64,000 nt of DNA from the NCBI RefSeq assembly GCF_012843675.1, contig NZ_JABAFO010000001.1, forward strand, positions 124,001-188,000, written 5' to 3'. This DNA is from Lactobacillus sp. MRS-253-APC-2B (lineage in GTDB: Bacteria; Bacillota; Bacilli; Lactobacillales; Lactobacillaceae). Below the pieces are notes generated by a model. That model was not told the origin of the DNA, did not search any database, and was given only the letters and a program-made list of their open reading frames with translations. Below are positions 2,180 to 21,350 of this stretch, piece after piece (the stretch's first letter is position 1; every line of letters begins with the position of its first letter). The position numbers and the translations under genes were made by a program.

Positions 2180-2348
2180 TCAAATTCATTTTTATTTTGT
2201 AAATGCTTTAATATTTTTGATTTACCTTAAAAAATGCCAATCTGCCAACTCTTTTGCAGCTCAAAACATCTTCACATCTATTTTAACAACTTTTATTTTC
2301 ATTTGAAAGCGACTACAATTTTATCAATAATTAACAGGAGGAGTGGGC

Positions 2349-2717
2349 ATGTAGTTTTTGGAAAACGGCTATCTGCCAACGATCAACACTACGTTTTCTT
2401 TTTTCGGTGGTCATGCTGAAACCGTTGAGCCCGGCTGGCGCCCACCCAGCCTTTGAGATTCTGCACATCTTGGATGGCGCGCAAAGAACCGTTACCGAAT
2501 TAGCCGAAAAAATCATTAAGGCTGGTGAGATGATGGTCATTCCCATTGGCATGAAACACACTAACTATTGCTGGGGCAACGAATCAATGACCTTTTTACC
2601 ATGCATTTCAATCTTGACGGCCCAGCAATCAAATATCTGCTGGTGAAAAACTTTACCAACCAGATTATTGATCAGACCGCGCCTTACTATGACGAACTGC
2701 GCCAATCGCTTGACTAG
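2349..2717 (+). pseudogene. Decayed cupin-domain (AraC-type sensor) gene
   Basis: A good ribosome binding site (AGGAGG at 2336-2341) precedes an ATG that is followed at once by a TAG stop. Beyond it, three reading frames must be joined to recover one protein: a frame with GGHAETVEPGW, a shift near 2440 into HPAFEILHILDG and PIGMKHTNY, and another near 2580 into FTMHFNLDGPAIKYLL ending at TAG 2717. The pieces read like the N-terminal cupin sensor of an AraC-type regulator. The DNA-binding C-terminus is absent, and a TnpB fragment begins where it would be. At least one nonsense change and two frameshifts make this a dead gene. Confidence 0.7.
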
Positions 2718-8807: not shown

Positions 8808-10313
8808 CTATTCTTCACGACGGAAGCTCAATAGAGAGTGGCACAAGTCTTTAGTCTGACCATAAACTTGATGATAGATTGCGTACAATTCATCATACTT
8901 GGCAACATTGGCGGGCTTTGGCAGATATTCCTTACCAAAGTGAACGAATTCTTTAGCACAGTCCTGCAGCGAATCAAACCAACCCAGACCAACTGCCGCG
9001 ATCATAGCAGCTCCCAAACCAGGTCCTTGTTCATTGGTCAAGGCAACAACCTTCTTGTTAAAGATGTCGGCCTGCATCTGAAGCCAAAAGTCGCTCTTGG
9101 CCCCACCACCAATGGCTACCACCGTATCGAATTCCTGACCGTTTTGATCATAGATATTTAAAATATCACGGAAACTGAAGGTGATCCCTTCCATCACGGC
9201 CCGACAGAAGTCATAGCGATCCTGCATACTGTCAACACCAATAAAGCTACCTCGAATATCAGCATCAGCATATGGCGTCCGCTCACCAACTACGTAAGGC
9301 GTAAAGATCAGACCATTGGCACCCAGTGGCCGCTTGGAGGCTTTTTCAACCATCGTCGAGAAGTCCTCGTCTGGATCAAACTTATGCTTAAACCAGTTTA
9401 GCGAGTGACCGGCTGCCAGCGTAACACCCATTGAGTAGTAGGTGTCTGGGATTGCGTGACATTCGTATTGAATCTGGCCATGGTAATTAACGTTGGCATT
9501 TTCTTCATATTTAAGCACAACGCCCGAAGTCCCAATTGAGGACATAACCATGTTTGGATGCAGGATGCCGGCACCAACCGCACCACAGGCATTGTCACCG
9601 CCACCACCATAGATTTTGGTGTCCGTTGAAAGGCCTGAGAACATGGCATAGCTAGCCGAAACGTTGCCCGCATAGTCAACCGACTTCATCAAAGGTGGAC
9701 ACATGCTCATCGGAATATCAAAGGCATCACAGATTTCCTGGCTCCATTGACCTTCCTTGATGTCTAACAGCACCGTCCCCGTGGCATCCGAATAATCCAT
9801 CCCCAGGTTACCCGTCATGCAGAAGCGAACATAGTCTTTTGGCAACAGGAACGTTTTGGCCTTAGCCCAGATCTCCGGTTCATTCTCCTTGACCCAAAGC
9901 AGCTTAGGCAGCGTGAAACCTTCCAGTGGCTTGTTGCCAGTAATATCGATGAAGCGATCGCCCATCTTATCCATGATTTCTTGACACTGCTTGGTCGTGC
10001 GCGTGTCGTTCCATAAAATAGCTGGCCGCAGCACCTGATTATTTTCATCAAGCAGCACCAGGCCATGCATCTGACCAGAGAAGGAAATCCCTTTGATCTC
10101 TTCTTTTTTAAGACCATCTTTTAAGATCATCCGGTCAATGCCAATCGTCGTACCATACAGCCAGTCTTGTGGGTTCTGCTCACTGTAGCCTGGCTTAGGC
10201 TGACTCAGTGGATAGTCGTAGCTTTGCTGAGCGGCGATCTTGCCTGAGCGATCCATTGCCGAAACCTTAACGGCACTGGTCCCCAAGTCGACCCCAATTA
10301 CGTATTCATTCAT
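8808..10313 (-). CDS. xylB: Xylulokinase
   Basis: XylB phosphorylates D-xylulose with ATP to xylulose 5-phosphate, which enters the phosphoketolase pathway. The 501-residue FGGY-family kinase shows the phosphate loop [11 protein letters not shown] at residues 7-17, the substrate motif FSGQMHGLV near 78-86, and the catalytic aspartate D240 in [15 protein letters not shown] strong ribosome binding site GGAGGAAAG precedes the ATG. It follows xylA by 83 nt on the same strand; the gap holds a hairpin with a T-run that probably sets XylB output below that of XylA. Confidence 0.96.
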
Positions 10314-10330
10314 AGTCTTTCCTCCAAGAA

Positions 10331-10369
10331 AAAAGGATCCGCAGCCATCTGCGGCGATGCGAATCCTTT
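10331..10369 (-). terminator. Intergenic hairpin between xylA and xylB
   Basis: On the minus strand AAAGGAT and ATCCTTT flank an inner stem CCGCAG/CTGCGG, followed by TTTTTTC and then directly by the xylB ribosome binding site. It looks like an intrinsic terminator inside the operon, which could let part of the transcription through or protect the xylA message. Confidence 0.65.
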
Positions 10370-10396
10370 CTATTATATTGTTAGAGTTTCAAGTGA

Positions 10397-11746
10397 TTAT
10401 TTAGCCAGCGTTTCGATCATGAAGTGGTTGATCGTGTCCTTAACCTGTTCAAGGTGGTCAGATTGCGTAGCTGCACGCAGTTCGCTTTGTGGCGTGTCCA
10501 GAACGGTTGGTTCGATAGACTTGAAGTCTTCCTTGCCTTCTTCGATGGACTTGCCCAGACCTTCGTCCCATGATGCGTAACGATCCTTGAGTACCTTGTC
10601 CAGGTAGCCGTCTTCCTTTAGAGCAGCGGCAACGCGCAGGCCGGCAGCAAACGTGTCCATACCAACAATGTGGCTGTAGAACAGATCTTCTGGCTTCCAA
10701 GAAGTACGACGTGGCTTGGAGTCGAAGTTCAGACCACCGTGAGGGCCAATTTGACCTTCTTCAACGACTTCGTACATTGCAGCCGTTGCTTCGTACAGAT
10801 TGGATGGGAATTCGTCGATGTCCCAACCGATCAGCTTGTCACCTTGGTTGGCGTCCAGTGAACCCAGCATGCCGGCTTCACGTGCAACGCGAATTTCGTG
10901 TTGGTAAGTGTGACCAGCCAGGTTAGCGTGGTTGCCTTCCAGGTTCAGCTTGAAGTCCTTGTCCAGGCCGTATTCCTTCATAAAGTTCAGCGTCGTAGCA
11001 GCGTCGAAGTCGTATTGGTGCGTAGTTGGTTCCTTTGGCTTAGGTTCCAGCAGCATTTGAGCATCAAAGCCGATTTCGTTTGCGTAGTCCTTAGCCATGT
11101 GGAAGAACTTGGCAATGTGCGATTGTTCACGCTTCATTTCAGTGTTCCAGAGTGATTCGTAACCTTCACGGCCACCCCAGAAGACGTAGTTCTCAGCGCC
11201 AACCCGCTTACCAACTTCCAGACTGTGCTTCAGTTGAGCACAAGCATAAGCGTAGATCTTAGCAGATGGAGCAGTACCGGCACCAGCCAAGAAACGAGGG
11301 TTCGTGAACAGGTTGGACGTGTTCCACAGAACCTTCATGCCAGTCGTCTTTTGGTACTCAACGATCTTGTCAACGATCTTGTCCAGGTTCTTGTTGGTTT
11401 CACGCAGGGTGTCGCCTTCTGGAGCCAAGTCGCGGTCGTGGAAGCAGAAGTAGTCAACGCCCAGCTTGTTGTAGAATTCAAAGGCGTAGTCAACCTTTGC
11501 CAAAGCGTTGTCCATTGGGTCAGTGTACTTGTCGTATGGACGAACGGCCGTACCATCACCAAATGGGTCAACCAGGCGTTGGTCAAACGTGTGCCAGTAA
11601 GCAACTGAGAACCGCAGCCAATCCTTCATCTTCTTGCCCAGGATAACTTCTTCTGGGTTGTAGTATTGGAATGCCAGGCGTGAGTTCAAGCCTTTGTGTG
11701 GACCTTCATACTTAACTTTGTCAATACCTTGCCATAAATCACTCAT
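10397..11746 (-). CDS. xylA: Xylose isomerase
   Basis: XylA converts D-xylose to D-xylulose using divalent metal. The 449-residue protein is of the longer class II type. Visible active-site elements are H103 and D106 in YFCFHDRD, the [10 protein letters not shown] segment near 188-197, and metal ligand E234 with K236 in LLEPKPKEP. Codon use is strongly biased to preferred codons, as expected for an abundant enzyme. The ribosome binding site is AGGAGG. It is the first gene of xylAB; its promoter carries a cre-like site over the -35 and an XylR-type operator just after the start point. Confidence 0.97.
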
Positions 11747-11767
11747 AATATGGGCCTCCTGAAATTT

Positions 11768-11838
11768 ATTAGTTTAAATAAACAACTAACTTACGGTTTT
11801 TAATATAGACCATCAAGCTATTTTTGTAAACCCTTTCT
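11768..11838 (-). promoter_or_regulatory. xylA promoter with cre-like site and XylR-type operator
   Basis: Minus-strand -35 TTTACA (11825-11830) and -10 TATATT (11802-11807) are separated by 17 nt. A cre-like site with one mismatch (11824-11838, plus strand TTGTAAACCCTTTCT) covers the -35. The operator ATTAGTT-N9-AACTAAC (11768-11790) lies just downstream of the start point. This gives repression by XylR without xylose and by CcpA with glucose. The rest of the 379-bp divergent region is AT-rich and holds the symporter promoter. Confidence 0.75.
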
Positions 11839-12020
11839 AGCAAAAAAATTGAAATTTTTGCATTTTCAATTTGGTGCGTAATTCGATTCTCCGCTTATAA
11901 ATATAGTAGAGAAAAATACTCTCTCGCAACCGCTTTTTAGCTAGGTTTCATCGAAAATAGCACTAAGCAGGCCGCAGATTTTACCTTAATTGGTTTTTTT
12001 GATATTTTTTACTAAACATC

Positions 12021-12082
12021 TTGATTTTTGAATTGAAAGCGGTTATATTAATCTCGTAAGTTAGTTTTAATCTTTAACTAAC
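12021..12082 (+). promoter_or_regulatory. Xylose symporter promoter with cre-like site and XylR-type operator
   Basis: A -35 TTGATT (12021-12026) is 17 nt from the -10 TATATT (12044-12049). A cre-like sequence with one mismatch (TTGAAAGCGGTTATA, 12033-12047) fills the spacer. A perfect operator GTTAGTT-N9-AACTAAC spans 12060-12082, right after the start point, in the same arrangement as at xylA. Confidence 0.75.
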
Positions 12083-12125
12083 TAAGCAATAGGAGTGTTT
12101 TTATAGTTAAGGAGTTGTAGTAATC

Positions 12126-13478
12126 ATGCGCAAAGTATCTGCGGGCTTTATCTACTTTTTCGGGGCCCTCGGCGGTTTGCTCTTCGGTTACGATACCGGT
12201 GTTATTTCTGGGGCTATTCTGTTTATTCAAAAACAGATGCACCTGGGAACTTGGGAACAAGGCTGGATCGTTTCCGCAGTACTGCTGGGTGCCATCTTAG
12301 GTTCATTGTTTATCGGACCATCTTCTGACAAGTATGGTCGTCGCAAATTGCTATTATTGTCATCGATTATCTTCTTTGTTGGTGCGCTTGGTTCCGGATT
12401 CTCACAAGGCTTTTGGTCATTGCTTTGCTTCCGGATTGTCTTAGGGCTGGCCGTTGGTGCCTCATCTTCAATGGTACCAACCTACCTGGCCGAACTTTCT
12501 CCAGCCGACAAGCGGGGCATGGTTTCCAGTATGTTCCAATTGATGGTTATGACTGGTATTCTGGTTGCCTACATCACAAACTGGTCATTTGAAAACATGT
12601 ACACTGGTTGGCGTTGGATGCTTGGCTTTGCAGCTATTCCTGCTGCCATTATGTTCTTCGGTGCCCTTTACCTGCCAGAATCCCCTCGTTATCTGGTTAA
12701 GATTGGTCGTGAAAACGATGCACGAACCGTTTTGATGAACATGAACCACAATGATAAAGGCATCGTTGATAAGGACATGTCTCAAATCGAACAACAAGTT
12801 CACATGAAGAATGGTGGCTTAAAGGAACTGTTTGGCCCAATGGTGCGTCCAGCTTTAGTTGCGGCAATCGGTCTGGCTGTCTTCCAGCAAGTCATGGGCT
12901 GCAACACAGTGCTTTACTATGCCCCAACCATCTTTACTGACGTTGGTTTCGGTGTTAACGCTGCGCTGCTGGCTCACATTGGGATTGGTACCTTTAACGT
13001 CATCGTCACGGCATTTGCCCTCTCAATCATGGATAAGGTTGACCGGAAAAAGATGCTGATCTATGGTGGTCTTGGCATGGGTGTCTCACTGTTTGTCATG
13101 AGTGCTGGGATGAAATTCTCCGGCGGTTCAAAAGCAGCTGCGGTTATCTGTGTTCTTGCCATGACCATTTACATTGCCTTCTTCTCAGGTACTTGGGGTC
13201 CAGTTATGTGGGTTATGTTTGGTGAAATGTTCCCACTTAACATTCGTGGTCTTGGGAACTCATTTGGTTCCGTGGTCAACTGGACTGCCAACCTGATCGT
13301 TTCGTTGACGTTCCCAACCCTGCTGGACTTCTTTGGTACGGGTAGTCTGTTTATCGGCTATGGCGTCCTCTGCTTCTTTGGTATCTGGTTCGTTCATGCC
13401 AAGGTCTTCGAAACACGCGGTAAGTCACTGGAAGACATCGAACAGACGTTGCGTGACCACGCTGGTTCCAAGAACTAA
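12126..13478 (+). CDS. xylT: D-xylose:H+ symporter-type MFS sugar transporter
   Basis: This 450-residue, 12-span membrane protein belongs to the MFS sugar porter family (XylE/XylT/AraE). Family marks are FGYDTGVISGA near residues 20-30, the D-x-x-GRR loop SDKYGRRKL near 67-75, PESPRYLV near 183-190, and the helix-7 QQ motif in FQQVMGCNTVLYYAP. It is transcribed divergently from xylA and shares its regulatory region, so xylose is the likely substrate. The AAGGAG site lies 12-13 nt before the ATG. A terminator follows the stop. Confidence 0.9.
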   Translation: MRKVSAGFIYFFGALGGLLFGYDTGVISGAILFIQKQMHLGTWEQGWIVSAVLLGAILGSLFIGPSSDKYGRRKLLLLSSIIFFVGALGSGFSQGFWSLLCFRIVLGLAVGASSSMVPTYLAELSPADKRGMVSSMFQLMVMTGILVAYITNWSFENMYTGWRWMLGFAAIPAAIMFFGALYLPESPRYLVKIGRENDARTVLMNMNHNDKGIVDKDMSQIEQQVHMKNGGLKELFGPMVRPALVAAIGLAVFQQVMGCNTVLYYAPTIFTDVGFGVNAALLAHIGIGTFNVIVTAFALSIMDKVDRKKMLIYGGLGMGVSLFVMSAGMKFSGGSKAAAVICVLAMTIYIAFFSGTWGPVMWVMFGEMFPLNIRGLGNSFGSVVNWTANLIVSLTFPTLLDFFGTGSLFIGYGVLCFFGIWFVHAKVFETRGKSLEDIEQTLRDHAGSKN

Positions 13479-13572
13479 TCCAGTCATTATTCAAAATCCC
13501 ACTCAAATCTTAAATTTAAATCCGATCTTACTTGCTGAATCCTAACCCTCTCAATATCGATAGTAAGTAAAT

Positions 13573-13604
13573 GGCCTGACAGTCCTCGCTGCCAGGCTTT
13601 TTTA
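13573..13604 (+). terminator. Terminator after xylT
   Basis: GCCTGACAG and CTGCCAGGC form a 9-bp stem with one mismatch, followed by TTTTTTATT. Confidence 0.85.
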
Positions 13605-13632
13605 TTAATCATAAATTAAACTAAAATTAGAG

Positions 13633-13661
13633 TTGACTTAGAACTCCTCATAATGTATACT
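13633..13661 (+). promoter_or_regulatory. Promoter of the aroF-aroB leader
   Basis: TTGACT (13633-13638), 17 nt, TATACT (13656-13661) is a near-consensus sigma-A promoter. Transcription from about 13668 would give a leader of about 285 nt before aroF. Confidence 0.7.
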
Positions 13662-13704
13662 CAATCCAACCTTTTGAAATTAAAAGCACTAAAGGAGCAG
13701 CATT

Positions 13705-13752
13705 ATGAAAATTACAAACGTACGATTTAGCTATTATTATCAATCACGCTAG
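13705..13752 (+). CDS. Tyr-rich leader peptide of the aroF-aroB attenuator
   Basis: AAAGGAG at 13691-13697 is followed by an ATG and a 15-codon frame encoding MKITNVRFSYYYQSR. Three consecutive Tyr codons (13732-13740) follow a Phe codon closely. The frame sits between a strong promoter and an intrinsic terminator, upstream of a DAHP synthase that makes Tyr and Phe precursors. These are the hallmarks of a ribosome-stalling leader peptide. The frame is too short to be judged by homology; composition and position carry the case. Confidence 0.75.
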   Translation: MKITNVRFSYYYQSR

Positions 13753-13893
13753 CGCTGGCACGCATAGACGGTTGGCGCTGGGCTAACGGTCTATGCGATT
13801 GATAATAGTTTGTAATTACCGATTGCATGGCAGATCTTTTGTTAAGGCACTGTGTAGTCGGTCGTGCTCCAACCAGCATCGCTGCTGATCACG

Positions 13894-13928
13894 AACCCTC
13901 ACGGTGGTTTAACATCGTGAGGGTTTTT
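13894..13928 (+). terminator. Intrinsic terminator of the aro leader
   Basis: AACCCTCACG (13894-13903) and CGTGAGGGTT (13916-13925) form a perfect 10-bp stem with a 12-nt loop, followed by a T-run. It ends 27 nt before the aroF start and so must be bypassed for aroF expression. Confidence 0.9.
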
Positions 13929-13954
13929 GTATTGACGGATAAGGAGTGTTTTTT

Positions 13955-14950
13955 ATGATTATCGTATTAAAAGCTGAACAAGCAGCCCCAACAATTGAAG
14001 CATTAAAGCAGCATTTTGGCAGTGATCATGATATCTTCGTTCATAATAATCGAATTGCCATTCAAAATATTACACCAGACGACCTGACTCCCACTGAACA
14101 AGCCGCAGCTGAAAAAATCATTACCAAGGTTCCAGCAGCCGTTCAAGCATCCCGCTTGTTTCATCCCGAAGATACGATCATTAAAACGCCTCATTCAACG
14201 ATTGGCGGCGATAATTTTACCTTGATGGCCGGTCCCTGCTCAGTTGAATCAGCCGAACATGTCTTAAAAATGGCAAAAGTCACTAAAAACGCTGGCGCAA
14301 CCGTTCTGCGTGGTGGTGCCTTCAAACCTCGCACCTCACCATACTCATTCCAGGGATTAGGCAAAGCAGGACTGATCGCCTTAAGAAAAGCCGCTGATCA
14401 GCTGGCATTAGATGTCGTAACCGAGGTTATGGATGTTGAACAGGTACCATTGGTCGAAAAATACACCGATATTTTTCAGATCGGGGCGCGCAACATGCAG
14501 AACTTCTCGCTGTTAAAAGCAGTTGGAAAAACCCGCAAACCAGTAATGCTAAAACGCGGCATGTCAGCAACGGTTGATGACGTTTTGAACGCTACGGAAT
14601 ACATTGCCGCTGGTGGCAACCATCAAATTATGATCGTTGAGCGTGGGATTCGAACGTTTGATAATAAATACACGCGCAATACCTTTGATGTTGGCGCCAT
14701 TCCGGTCTTGCACAAACTGACTCACTACCCAGTCATTGCCGATCCAAGCCATGCCGCTGGTCATACCGAGTTTGTAACGCCATTGGCTTTGGCCGGGGTA
14801 GCAGCCGGTGCAGATGGCTTGATCGTTGAGATTCATGACGATCCGGCCCATGCCTTTTCCGACGGTGCTCAGGCATTGCGTCCTGATGAATTTAACGAAA
14901 TGGTAACCAAGGCTAATACGGTACATCAAGCTTTACAGTCAACCAAGTAA
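13955..14950 (+). CDS. aroF: 3-deoxy-7-phosphoheptulonate synthase (DAHP synthase, type I beta)
   Basis: This enzyme condenses phosphoenolpyruvate and erythrose 4-phosphate to DAHP, the first step to chorismate and aromatic amino acids. The core has LMAGPCSVES, GGAFKPRTSPYSFQG, LKRGMSATVDD and ADPSHAAGH, typical of the KDO8P-synthase-like class. Residues 1-70 form an extra N-terminal domain like the ferredoxin-like domain of Thermotoga DAHP synthase, which mediates Tyr/Phe feedback, so end-product control may act on both transcription and enzyme. A GTG at 13946 overlaps the AAGGAG site; the ATG at 13955 is the better start (331 residues). aroB follows by 15 nt. Confidence 0.93.
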   Translation: MIIVLKAEQAAPTIEALKQHFGSDHDIFVHNNRIAIQNITPDDLTPTEQAAAEKIITKVPAAVQASRLFHPEDTIIKTPHSTIGGDNFTLMAGPCSVESAEHVLKMAKVTKNAGATVLRGGAFKPRTSPYSFQGLGKAGLIALRKAADQLALDVVTEVMDVEQVPLVEKYTDIFQIGARNMQNFSLLKAVGKTRKPVMLKRGMSATVDDVLNATEYIAAGGNHQIMIVERGIRTFDNKYTRNTFDVGAIPVLHKLTHYPVIADPSHAAGHTEFVTPLALAGVAAGADGLIVEIHDDPAHAFSDGAQALRPDEFNEMVTKANTVHQALQSTK

Positions 14951-14965
14951 AAGAAGGGAATCCCA

Positions 14966-16036
14966 ATGGAAAAAATTTCAGTCGCGCTGGCCAGTCATCA
15001 ATATGACGTTTTAATTGAACCTGGCTTGTTGAAAACAACTGGTGAACGGATTGCTCAAATCTGGTCACCGCGTAAGATTGCCTTGATCAGTGATGACAAC
15101 GTGGCTCCGCTTTATCAAAAAGATTTGGCTGCCCAGCTGACTAATCAAGGCTTTGAAGTCCATTGTTATGACTTCCCGGCTGGTGAAGCCTCGAAATCAT
15201 TAGCCCAGCTCCAGCGACTCAGCGAAAAACTGGCAAAAGCCAATTTCAATCGCGATGATGCGGTCATTGCTCTTGGCGGCGGCGTCACGGGCGATCTGGT
15301 TGGTTTTTTGGCGGCTACCTACATGCGCGGAATCTCATTGATTCAAATTCCGACATCGTTACTGGCTCAAGTTGACAGTTCGGTTGGTGGTAAAACTGCT
15401 GTTGATCTAGGAACAACCAAAAATATTATCGGTGCCTTTTATGAACCTGATCTGGTATTGATTGATCCGCAAACCTTAACAACCTTGCCTACCCGTGATC
15501 TGGTAGAAGGATATGGTGAAATCGTCAAAGCCGCGGCAATGGTTGGCAACGGTTTTTGGCGTCTAATTGAGCAGATCGATTCGCCTGCCGCTATCTTGAA
15601 ACATGCTTTGAAACTGAGTGAATTCTCCATTCAGTTTAAAGCCGACATTGTCATGGCAGATGAAAAAGAAAGCGGCCAACGCCAGCTGCTTAATTTTGGT
15701 CATACCATTGGCCATGCTATTGAGGCCCTATCTGCCGGTGAATTGCGCCATGGTGAAGCGATCAGCATTGGTACGGTTGCCATCTGTCGTGCTTTTGAAG
15801 CGGCTGGTAAAACCGCACCCGGTACTACACAAAAAATCACAGCCAGACTGACAGCGGTCGGTTTGCCAATTACGTCACCATGGCTTGCTTCTAATCGGGT
15901 TTTAGAACTGATCAAACACGATAAGAAAAACCACAACGGCTATTTGAATCTGGTTTATGTTAAAGAAATTGGCGTCCCCGCCATCTTAAAGGTTCCCACC
16001 AACCAGATTGCCGCAACCCTACAGCTGCCTAGCTAA
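14966..16036 (+). CDS. aroB: 3-dehydroquinate synthase
   Basis: AroB converts DAHP to 3-dehydroquinate with NAD+ and a metal ion. The 356-residue protein has the NAD-binding run ALGGGVTGDLVGFLAATYMRG, the SSVGGKTAVD and KNIIGAFYEP segments, and the metal-site motifs NFGHTIGHA and RHGEAISIG. It follows aroF by 15 nt with an AGAAGGGA ribosome binding site and is covered by the same attenuator. Only these two shikimate genes are here; the others must lie elsewhere. Confidence 0.96.
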   Translation: MEKISVALASHQYDVLIEPGLLKTTGERIAQIWSPRKIALISDDNVAPLYQKDLAAQLTNQGFEVHCYDFPAGEASKSLAQLQRLSEKLAKANFNRDDAVIALGGGVTGDLVGFLAATYMRGISLIQIPTSLLAQVDSSVGGKTAVDLGTTKNIIGAFYEPDLVLIDPQTLTTLPTRDLVEGYGEIVKAAAMVGNGFWRLIEQIDSPAAILKHALKLSEFSIQFKADIVMADEKESGQRQLLNFGHTIGHAIEALSAGELRHGEAISIGTVAICRAFEAAGKTAPGTTQKITARLTAVGLPITSPWLASNRVLELIKHDKKNHNGYLNLVYVKEIGVPAILKVPTNQIAATLQLPS

Positions 16037-16129: not shown

Positions 16130-17302
16130 TTATTTGATATTTGAAACTGACTTAGGCCACTTTAACGTCAGCGAATATTGATCCATCTTCAAGAAACGAT
16201 GAATGGCAATCGAGCTGGCACCCAAAAGCGAGGCCATTTCAGACCCCTTGATCATCCGAATCGGAATATCAACATGATGTACCTGCAGCCAGTCGCGAAG
16301 CTGTTGATACAGTTCTGGAATCTCGTCAAACAATGGCGAATCAAAGTATACTGCCTGAGGGCCATAGCCAACGACTGCATTATGGGCAGTCTTTTGCAGC
16401 TGCTGCATGGCCTGAGCAACAACTTTTTCGGTCGCCTCGTCATGCTGCCGATACAGTTCATACAGCTGCATTGGCGTCAGTTCCGCCAGCCCCTTTTCTT
16501 TGGCAATGCGGTTTAAGATGGCCTCTTCCGAACAAAGATCCTCAACCTTGACCAGCTCACCATTTTGGCCCACCACCAGGCTCCGACCGATTTCACCAGC
16601 CCGACCATGAAACCCTCGATACAGTTGATGGTTGGCAATGATGCCGGCACCAATCCCTTTATGAATACTGATCGTCAACAAGTCACGATAGTTTTCTCGA
16701 TCGCCAAAATCGCGCTCAAAAATCGCCGCCAGGTTGGCTTCATTTTCCAAGATCGTGGGGACATTGAACTCATTTTCAAAATAGGCTGCCAGATCAATCC
16801 CGTTCGTATTCATAAACGGTGCATCAACGATTTGATTGTCATCAACGATCCCATGCACTGAAAAGCCGATTGCCAATAACCCATGACGCGTATCGTTGTT
16901 TTGTTCCATTTTCTGCAGTCGATCCTTCATCAGCTGCATGATGGTCAGCATGTCGCGATTGTTGAGTATTACCGCTTCATAGCTGATTACCTCGCCATTT
17001 ATGTAGTTAAACATGATCCGCAGATGATTGGTTCCAACTTCAAAGCTGGCCACAAAGCCATATCGTTTATCCAGGCAGACCAGATTAGGCTTGCGGCCCC
17101 CACGATTGGTCGATTCCCCCTGCCCCAGTTCTTCAATAAAGCCTTCATCATTTAATTCGTTATAGATTGCTGATACGGTTGATTTGTTAATATCCAGCTC
17201 ACGAGAAATATCAACTCGTGTCGTCGTAGGATGATTAAACAGCTGCTGTAAAACCAGTTGCCGATTAGTCACCCGCACCAGACTACGACTGTCATTTTTC
17301 AT
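16130..17302 (-). CDS. xylR: ROK-family xylose repressor XylR
   Basis: The 390-residue protein has an N-terminal winged helix (residues ~10-75, with TRVDISRELDINKSTVSAIY) and a ROK sugar-binding domain with the signature IHKGIGAGIIANHQLYRG and HGRAGEIGRS. The cysteine-rich zinc motif CxCGxxGC of many ROK proteins is not visible; the segment reads VEDLCSEEAIL. It should repress xylose genes until xylose binds. Context supports this strongly: operators of the XylR type stand at three nearby xylose promoters and a weaker copy precedes xylR itself. The AGAGGTGG site sets the ATG. It is separated from xylAB and xylT by aroF-aroB. Confidence 0.9.
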   Translation of the reverse strand: MKNDSRSLVRVTNRQLVLQQLFNHPTTTRVDISRELDINKSTVSAIYNELNDEGFIEELGQGESTNRGGRKPNLVCLDKRYGFVASFEVGTNHLRIMFNYINGEVISYEAVILNNRDMLTIMQLMKDRLQKMEQNNDTRHGLLAIGFSVHGIVDDNQIVDAPFMNTNGIDLAAYFENEFNVPTILENEANLAAIFERDFGDRENYRDLLTISIHKGIGAGIIANHQLYRGFHGRAGEIGRSLVVGQNGELVKVEDLCSEEAILNRIAKEKGLAELTPMQLYELYRQHDEATEKVVAQAMQQLQKTAHNAVVGYGPQAVYFDSPLFDEIPELYQQLRDWLQVHHVDIPIRMIKGSEMASLLGASSIAIHRFLKMDQYSLTLKWPKSVSNIK

Positions 17303-20963: not shown

Positions 20964-21336
20964 GGGGATGTTTATGGATTCGACGGGTATAGTTCGAATT
21001 CCGGCTGCGTTTCGAAGGTTGCGACTTCGTAAAAACGCTCAGTTTCAAATTATAACTGCAAACAATAATTCAAACTCTTACGCATACGCTGCCTAACAAG
21101 TAAGCATGCGTAAATCCGGCTGGGCTCGTCCATGGTGCAGTACCGGGTTTTATCTAACAGTGGACTTACGCTTGTTGCTCCGGCTTGAAGCAGCAAGAAG
21201 AGACTAATCAAGCTAGTCAATTGGGTTAGCCCTGATCAGCGGCGTTCCAATCGATGAAATTTAAATAGCTGAGATACGAACGTAGACGCCGAAATGGCGA
21301 TATATTCGGACGCGGGTTCAAATCCCGCCATCTCCA
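20964..21336 (+). ncRNA. ssrA: Transfer-messenger RNA
   Basis: tmRNA rescues stalled ribosomes and tags the unfinished protein for degradation. The 5' end GGGGAT pairs with ATCTCC near the 3' end to form the acceptor stem; TTATGGATTCGACGGGT follows the 5' end, and the T-arm reads GGGTTCAAATCCC close to the 3' end. The tag frame runs from GCA 21058 to TAA 21096 and encodes ANNNSNSYAYAA. The terminal CCA is not completed in the genome after the discriminator base. SmpB, its protein partner, is encoded at 59.8 kb. The length of 373 nt is normal. Confidence 0.97.
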
Positions 21337-21350
21337 TTTGTGAATTTTAA

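Follow-up and report, generated by a model that had tools for sequence, protein, structure and literature searches.

Which signal controls entry into the shikimate pathway in Lactobacillus sp. MRS-253-APC-2B? Between a sugar transporter gene and the genes aroF and aroB, the first of which encodes DAHP synthase, lies a leader with a short open reading frame and a terminator. An earlier note, made from the letters of the DNA, had proposed a translation-controlled attenuator at which ribosomes stall on Tyr codons. The window analysed here is the whole stretch of 64,000 nucleotides on contig NZ_JABAFO010000001.1 (forward strand, positions 124,001 to 188,000), and all window coordinates are counted from its first letter. 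We conclude that the leader is very probably (at roughly nine in ten) a transcription attenuator through which ribosomes on the leader sense the charging of tRNA-Tyr, or of Phe, Tyr and Trp tRNAs in most of the family, and which thereby controls shikimate entry. This reading is carried by the parts present in the leader, their conservation, the covariation of seven helices and the computed dependence of one of these helices on the position of the ribosome.

The leader region and its genes

The features of the locus are as follows.

13633..13661 (+): promoter of the sigma-70 type, TTGACT-17-TATACT, read directly
13692..13697 (+): ribosome binding site (RBS) AAGGAG of the leader ORF, read directly
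13705..13752 (+): leader ORF of 15 codons, MKITNVRFSYYYQSR, stop codon TAG at 13750-13752; the in-frame aromatic run is kept in relatives
13732..13740 (+): Tyr codons TAT TAT TAT, predicted stall site (read directly; masked folding)
13750..13759 (+): strand 0, made up of the stop codon and the 7 nt that follow; forms helix 0:1 with 13771-13780 when free of the ribosome
13761..13780 (+): strand 1; pairs with strand 2 (helix 1:2, 13761-13769 with 13789-13797 plus 13771-13775 with 13783-13787) or with strand 0
13783..13817 (+): strand 2; pairs with strand 1, the Tyr codons, the early codons or, through 13791-13800, strand 3
13818..13830 (+): strand 3; pairs with strand 2 (helix 2:3, through 13821-13830) or with strand 4 (helix 3:4)
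13848..13862 (+): strand 4; 13850-13862 pairs with strand 3, and 13848-13854 with 13900-13906 as antiterminator (helix 4:5, 7 bp only in the window)
13866..13870 (+): GCTCC, possible anti-Shine-Dalgarno sequence of the leader ORF, a putative element with support in some leaders of the family
13894..13906 (+): strand 5, which pairs with strand 6 as 5' arm of the intrinsic terminator or else with strand 4
13913..13930 (+): strand 6, 3' arm of the terminator plus T-rich tail
13955..14950 (+): aroF, DAHP synthase of 331 amino acids, the regulated gene (TIGR01361, NF006421)
14966..16036 (+): aroB, 3-dehydroquinate synthase (TIGR01357), starting 15 nt past aroF

Most of the parts listed in the earlier note were found as described. 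The promoter, which had been called near-consensus, matches the consensus in 10 of 12 bases (-35 box TTGACT at 13633-13638, spacer of 17 nt, -10 box TATACT at 13656-13661), and several relatives show a similar promoter in the equivalent position, as judged by eye. The ribosome binding site and the 15-codon frame with Phe-Ser-Tyr-Tyr-Tyr, opening with the ATG at 13705, are both read directly from the DNA. Present as well is the perfect 10-bp intrinsic terminator ahead of DAHP synthase (AACCCTCACGGTG/CATCGTGAGGGTT), in which 13894-13906 pairs with 13913-13925, the first 10 bp being perfect and the sequence T-rich thereafter; RNA polymerase would be expected to terminate here. The 20-bp helix reported to involve the leader codons stands as a pairing but not as a single helix: it consists of a 12-bp helix (13734-13745 with 13797-13808, one G-U pair) and a 10-bp helix (13710-13719 with 13808-13817), which have base 13808 in common and leave 14 nt between their 5' strands. 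The pairing of the early codons (13710-13719) was seen in the window only and lies outside the covariation analysis. As a whole, the leader folds with -101.6 kcal/mol (z = -7.2), a value reached by none of 200 shuffled sequences.

The identification of the downstream genes as aroF and aroB was borne out by profile matches above the curated cut-offs (TIGR01361 and, nearly full length, NF006421 for aroF; TIGR01357 for aroB), and the two genes presumably share one operon. The NF006421 match spans residues 1-329 of DAHP synthase, which makes inhibition of the enzyme by Tyr via its N-terminal domain plausible, but matches to solved structures begin at residue 55 or later. The genome also carries aroC, tyrA and, according to its translation, aroA, which are located on contig C34, 3' of a chorismate-mutase-like ORF; a scan of this locus with the leader covariance model R1 (see below) found no leader of the type described here. 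The aro operon adjoins genes for a xylulokinase-like and a xylose isomerase-like protein (by translation) and a sugar transporter (window 8808-13478), and is faced by the gene of a ROK-family regulator on the opposite strand (window 16130-17302, -).

Spread of the leader and make-up of the peptide

A direct DNA search found the leader in one other genome (G032, 82%; 2/56 counting the window's own), and homologues were therefore sought via DAHP synthase. In the genus, this enzyme is encoded by 7 of 50 genomes (E<=0.001). R1, a covariance model built from 30 of 34 distinct shorter leader segments, matches the same seven (E<=0.1), that is, 7/7 genomes with the gene and 0/43 without it. At the equivalent position, each of the seven DAHP synthase loci has a short frame in which two or more Tyr codons stand side by side, followed by a terminator. 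The conserved Tyr codons that the earlier note had suggested looking for in relatives are thus kept in 7/7, and loss of the frame or of the Tyr run from a leader that keeps its terminator, which it had named as evidence against attenuation, occurs in none of them.

Across the family, DAHP synthase was found in 159 of 396 genomes (E<=0.001) and R1 matches, always as a single copy, in 75 of the 396 (E<=0.01), 73 of which are also in the DAHP synthase list. In a sample of the order (295 genomes, family members included) R1 matches four genomes, all within the family. The figure of 75 is a lower bound, because R1 scans of many genomes filter more strictly and miss some leaders: on single loci the model also matches L040 (Leuconostoc fallax), L152 and, weakly, L147, and it gave no match at the single locus L121, though a regular expression finds a leader there. 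About 84 family genomes with DAHP synthase (two uncertain cases set aside) have no R1 match, so either other controls exist or R1 misses relatives, and many of these genomes may be under other control.

The regular expression requires an RBS-led ORF, an aromatic run and a terminator. It finds a leader at 32 of the 33 DAHP synthase loci listed for genus and family, the 33rd being found by the covariance model, and at 36 of 39 further upstream regions hand-picked across genera (34 when L126 and L154 are subtracted). Among loci it does not match, R1 recognizes L034, L040, L041 and L152 and is silent at E<=1 in L036, L127 and L151. Manual curation took out alternative starts and, at six loci, five peptides that did not resemble the others, which gave 65 distinct leaders, all with a terminator by construction; with L126 and L154 set aside as unlike the others, 63 leaders remained. 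In the ORF and the 80 nt that follow it, L037 (Lentilactobacillus) is identical to L025, L039 (Secundilactobacillus) to L026 and L042 (Ligilactobacillus ruminis) to L120. Secundilactobacillus collinoides seemingly has two DAHP synthase genes in one genome, one with a leader (L013) and a second copy (L036) for which no leader match was found within the surrounding 17 kb.

The encoded peptides typically carry the run Phe-Tyr-Tyr-Tyr-Trp and end in sequences such as NRFYYYWF, NRFSYYWS or NSYYYYWF. Tyr-Tyr occurs in 58 of the 63 leaders, Tyr-Tyr-Tyr in 34 and three consecutive aromatic residues in 59, counts that are partly built in because the regular expression demands an aromatic run, with no demand on Trp or on the length of the Tyr run. 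Trp is found within the last six residues in 58/63. The leaders of the window and of four other genus members lack this late Trp, have a Gln or Arg codon at its position and end in QSR, QSY, QPR or RVH (twice). The sensing of Tyr proposed in the earlier note is to be amended in that most of the family would respond to Phe, Tyr and Trp; the window's branch has no Trp codon in its run. The order and make-up of the run vary (FSYYY, FYY, YYFW, FYSYW), and outside it the peptides diverge widely between genera. Tyr is encoded by TAT 120 times and by TAC 55 times in the 63 leaders, Phe by TTT or TTC, and the stop codons are TAG, TAA and TGA; such mixed synonymous codons and the use of all three stops are expected for a translated frame.

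Seven helices and the position of the ribosome

Alignment of relatives had been suggested as a check on the helices, and these do carry compensating changes. In alignment A2, which comprises the 36 of the 63 leaders that align well, seven helices form a chain along which neighbours compete for shared strands. The proportion of paired cells and the number of base pairs changed on both sides are 88.1% and 4/10 for helix 0:1, 94.1% and 8/10 for 1:2, 97.6% and 6/8 for codons:2, 99.4% and 4/9 for 2:3, 93.7% and 5/9 for 3:4, 91.9% and 5/10 for 4:5, and 92.0% and 9/12 for 5:6. For all seven, the observed pairing or covariation score was reached by none of 500 shuffles. When the partner strand was slid by 1-3 columns, pairing dropped to 15-63% and the covariation score too stayed below that of the unslid helix in every case, a comparison that favours the unslid versions since the helices were initially read from L025, itself a member of A2. 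The sequences are related, so the covariation counts do not represent independent events. The number of further pair types did not exceed that of shuffles for 4:5 (264/500), codons:2 (496), 2:3 (146) and 5:6 (74), and two single pairs are often open (220-280 of 4:5 in 18/36 leaders, 100-116 of 0:1 in 23/36). The most conserved stretches are located in strands with at least two competing pairings. An automatic strand finder applied to all 63 leaders (p<=0.05) recovered codons:2 in 49, 2:3 in 40, 3:4 in 54 and 4:5 in 46, and missed 3:4 and 4:5 in the window's own leader.

The clearest trace of selection is a chain of four alignment columns, 84-149-181-223, which represent one base each in the late Trp (or Gln/Arg) codon and in strands 2, 3 and 4. 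The chain reads GCGC in 28 of the 36 leaders and ATAT in five, the window and four genus members, which are exactly the five leaders without the late Trp; in the other three only the last column deviates, one of them retaining a G-U pair. Joint selection on codons:2, 2:3 and 3:4 is the simplest explanation for such a concerted change of one base in each of four strands, and in five close relatives the ATAT set may go back to a single inherited set of changes. The comparative record is unusually clear in this respect, as the branch without the Trp codon retains all pairings.

The strands suggest the following relay. In the ribosome-free RNA, the Tyr codons and strand 1 would pair with strand 2, so that 3:4 forms and the terminator 5:6 follows. 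A ribosome waiting at the Tyr codons would cover them and leave the region of the stop codon exposed, which would allow 0:1 to form; this would release strand 2 for pairing with strand 3, and strand 4, thus freed, would engage strand 5, so that 5:6 does not form and aroF-aroB are transcribed. With the ribosome only a few codons further on, strand 0 would be covered, 1:2 would form and the off state would return; likewise, a ribosome at the end of the ORF would cover strand 0 and leave strand 1 free for strand 2, again with formation of 5:6. The timing of these steps and the charging of tRNA-Tyr as the signal in vivo are parts of the scheme that we infer. The earlier proposal of a translation-controlled attenuator with stalling at the Tyr codons is supported by the kept frame, the Tyr codons and the covarying helices. 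Its codon helix is not a direct competitor of the terminator: the signal would be transmitted by two further relay helices.

The dependence of helix 2:3 on the ribosome was computed for the 36 leaders by masked folding, in which the transcript up to strand 3 is folded at equilibrium with all bases through the leading edge of the ribosome forced to be unpaired; this serves as an equilibrium proxy for a kinetic process. Strand 3 was set by alignment columns, an earlier automatic definition having chosen wrong hairpins in many leaders, the window's included. Without a ribosome, the probability of 2:3 is 0-0.07. With the edge 11 nt past the A-site, its mean is 0.10 before the run, 0.48 at the Tyr codons and 0.18 after the run, and the best sense codon is one for Phe, Tyr or Trp in 34/36 leaders, as compared to ca. 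10.8 expected from composition. The best sense codon remains aromatic in 30-35 of 36 at edges from +9 to +14.

At edge +12, a ribosome on a Tyr codon brings 21/36 leaders above 0.5 and leaves six (L009, L010, L014, L016, L020, L026) at 0.1 or less; the window peaks at 0.28 and its nearest relative at 0.87. Eleven of the 36 pass 0.5 even upstream of the run, in many cases on the codon immediately preceding it, and L005, L017, L038 and L134 do so from early codons on. A ribosome placed on the stop codon gives at least 0.3 in 19/36, and from edge +13 onwards Trp codons have a mean no higher than that of the last codon plus stop (0.17 vs 0.42 at +15). In this model the 2:3 "on" helix is thus mostly favoured by a ribosome on Phe, Tyr or Trp codons, and weakly so in the window itself. 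The equilibrium probability of 4:5, calculated up to the terminator loop, was also tried as a readout and rejected, as 4:5 dominated in many leaders at any position of the ribosome. Since 4:5 would form at equilibrium regardless of the ribosome, termination would require that 3:4 forms first.

In a number of leaders the relay has additional elements. The 3:4 hairpin is trailed by a U-run of its own in 25/63 leaders, for example L025 and L138, so that these leaders probably have a pair of consecutive terminators. In the window, GGAGC at 13694-13698, overlapping the ribosome binding site, can pair with GCTCC at 13866-13870 (p=0.093; 0.033 in the nearest relative). Pairing of this anti-Shine-Dalgarno type reaches p<=0.05 with the core in 12 of the 36 leaders, namely in 0/12 with a U-run after 3:4 and in 12/24 without (Fisher p 0.0025, for a comparison chosen post hoc). 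Such pairing may prevent renewed translation of the leader.

Other explanations, known systems and distant leaders

TnaC is an arrest peptide that stalls with a free amino acid bound in the ribosome. A nascent chain that likewise binds a free aromatic amino acid would make the leader a sensor of free Tyr or Trp and not of uncharged tRNA. Its short ORF, conserved aromatic residues and stall-dependent relay would appear identical to those found here, but the wide variation of the peptides outside the aromatic run, the variation of the run itself and the absence of the late Trp in 5/63 leaders are hard to reconcile with a specific nascent chain, of which the window would offer just 9 residues ahead of the Tyr codons. 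Moreover, product-induced stalling would mean that the pathway is activated by its own end product, and we regard this explanation as very unlikely.

A riboswitch, with an RNA aptamer for an aromatic metabolite and an ORF of no significance, could account for the strong structure (z=-7.2) and for conserved parts such as GGTCACACAG. It would leave unexplained why synonymous changes have accumulated while the frame, its ribosome binding site and the Tyr codons persist, and the most conserved stretches fall in strands with competing pairings. Nor does the leader match an Rfam family: at gathering score, the tmRNA (RF00023, window 20964-21339) is the sole match in the whole 64-kb window, no cis-regulatory family of Rfam 15 matches the leader in the window or in 12 further loci, and the three matches that the region 13480-14000 yields at E<=5 are all below threshold and do not include a leader family. 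An aptamer is accordingly a highly improbable reading.

A further alternative is a diverged T-box that senses uncharged tRNA-Tyr directly, with no translation; many amino acid and tRNA-synthetase genes of Firmicutes are under T-box control. The accessible part of one account states such control for most synthetase genes and for tyrosine (PMC1262725). The T-box model RF00230 is nevertheless silent at gathering score on the window and 12 further leader-bearing loci, yet a scan of the same type detects a T-box elsewhere in L043, and no T-box appears in 13480-14000 even at E<=5, in line with the absence noted earlier; we consider this possibility barely credible. Just as little can be said for a terminator that acts constitutively behind a fortuitous short ORF, with leak-through into aroF, which would explain the clear terminator but neither the seven covarying helices nor the presence of the leader in 7/7 genus genomes with the gene and 0/43 without. 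In many Lactobacillaceae the initial step of aromatic synthesis would be controlled by tRNA charging via translation and not via a T-box, and the leader could readily serve to report starvation for aromatic amino acids.

Like the attenuators of E. coli trp and pheA, the ribosome-mediated attenuator proposed here would use the position of the ribosome to select an RNA fold; the E. coli systems have four strands, as opposed to seven, and other codons and genes. Closer in layout is the enterobacterial his attenuator, for which stems AB, CD and EF with the alternatives BC and DE are given in the accessible part of PMC10989985. Both have a leader peptide with a codon run, three off stems and two on stems, with the terminator last. 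The corresponding stems of the lactobacillar leader (1:2, 3:4 and 5:6 off; 2:3 and 4:5 on) all covary, including 4:5, the antiterminator helix that excludes the terminator, and 2:3. Unlike the his attenuator, the lactobacillar leader has Phe, Tyr and Trp codons, DAHP synthase as target and a host among the Lactobacillaceae, and an extra strand over the stop codon whose pairing (0:1) competes with 1:2. Sequence similarity to the his attenuator, compared via Rfam only, was not found.

The earlier note had described leader-peptide attenuation as classical in enterobacteria, which holds for the his case, but the mechanism is not confined to them. In Corynebacterium glutamicum the AroR leader peptide precedes aroF (Neshat et al. 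2014, as summarized in the accessible part of PMC11802643). This is likewise attenuation of a DAHP synthase operon by aromatic codons in a Gram-positive organism, but one of the Actinobacteria, with the codons Phe-Tyr-Phe and a reported response to limitation of Phe and not of Tyr (PMC11802643). For Acholeplasma, attenuation has been proposed for the uORFC-13-1 motif, which also combines a uORF, a terminator and aroF. It differs, compared by the description available in PMC8632094, in having 24 representatives from Acholeplasma and environmental sequences only, with at least one Phe codon. Classical attenuation by His leader peptides has been predicted for his genes of Firmicutes (PMC2965389, PMC9413887, as far as their accessible text goes), again where T-boxes are usual, with histidine genes as targets; in Lactobacillales, T-boxes are described there as the commonest control of his genes (PMC9413887). 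The mechanism is therefore of a known kind, preceded by AroR, uORFC-13-1, the Firmicutes His leaders and the his relay. Among open-access titles and abstract openings, no description of an aromatic leader peptide in Lactobacillaceae was found; within the scope of this search, what is new is the leader of this family, the inclusion of a stop-codon strand in its relay and the range of genomes that carry it.

Leader peptides of this general kind also occur at distant loci. The test called for an RBS-led ORF of 9-42 codons with a stretch of eight residues of which at least five are aromatic, located no more than 550 nt ahead of the gene start as estimated from the match. Such an ORF was found at 25 of 72 DAHP synthase loci and in 2 of 322 control windows; the remaining 47 loci had none under the same test. 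Seventy of the 72 loci, and all 25 positives, are outside the Lactobacillaceae; L046, L102 and L104, with scant upstream sequence, and five other Lactobacillaceae loci were left out. The positives comprise 21 from Clostridia or relatives, two deltaproteobacterial loci and one MAG each of Planctomycetaceae and Acholeplasmataceae. They include L043, L044, L047, L050, L057, L069, L091, L094, L110, L114 and 15 others, with the ORF ca. 160-355 nt upstream, and Rfam found no family at eight of these leaders. Their occurrence hints at a general association of DAHP synthase with leader peptides. Aromatic leader-peptide attenuation might be widespread, and perhaps the commonest RNA-level control of this class of DAHP synthase, in Bacillota and beyond, in many unrelated layouts, with the Lactobacillaceae form being a seven-strand relay whose stop-codon strand allows a ribosome on the aromatic codons to be distinguished from one that has moved a few codons on; for this broader proposition we see the arguments as evenly balanced.

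Some loci differ in the genes that follow or surround the leader. In Secundilactobacillus-type genomes a shikimate-dehydrogenase-like gene (by translation) is located immediately upstream of aroF. In L191 (G297:C6) the leader MNTSILKSNRYYYFWFM precedes an operon tkt-aroE-aroF-aroB (by translation), in which the transketolase would bring a source of erythrose-4-phosphate under aromatic control. A leader of the same kind, MTKSTRYYYYWFI, is found in L190 (G127:C35, 450-800) ahead of aroC-aroA-tyrA (by translation), in a genome that is absent from the DAHP synthase list. In L125, an azaaromatic (yjdF) riboswitch is located at 2333-2431 (-), ca. 0.4 kb upstream of the leader and on the opposite strand.
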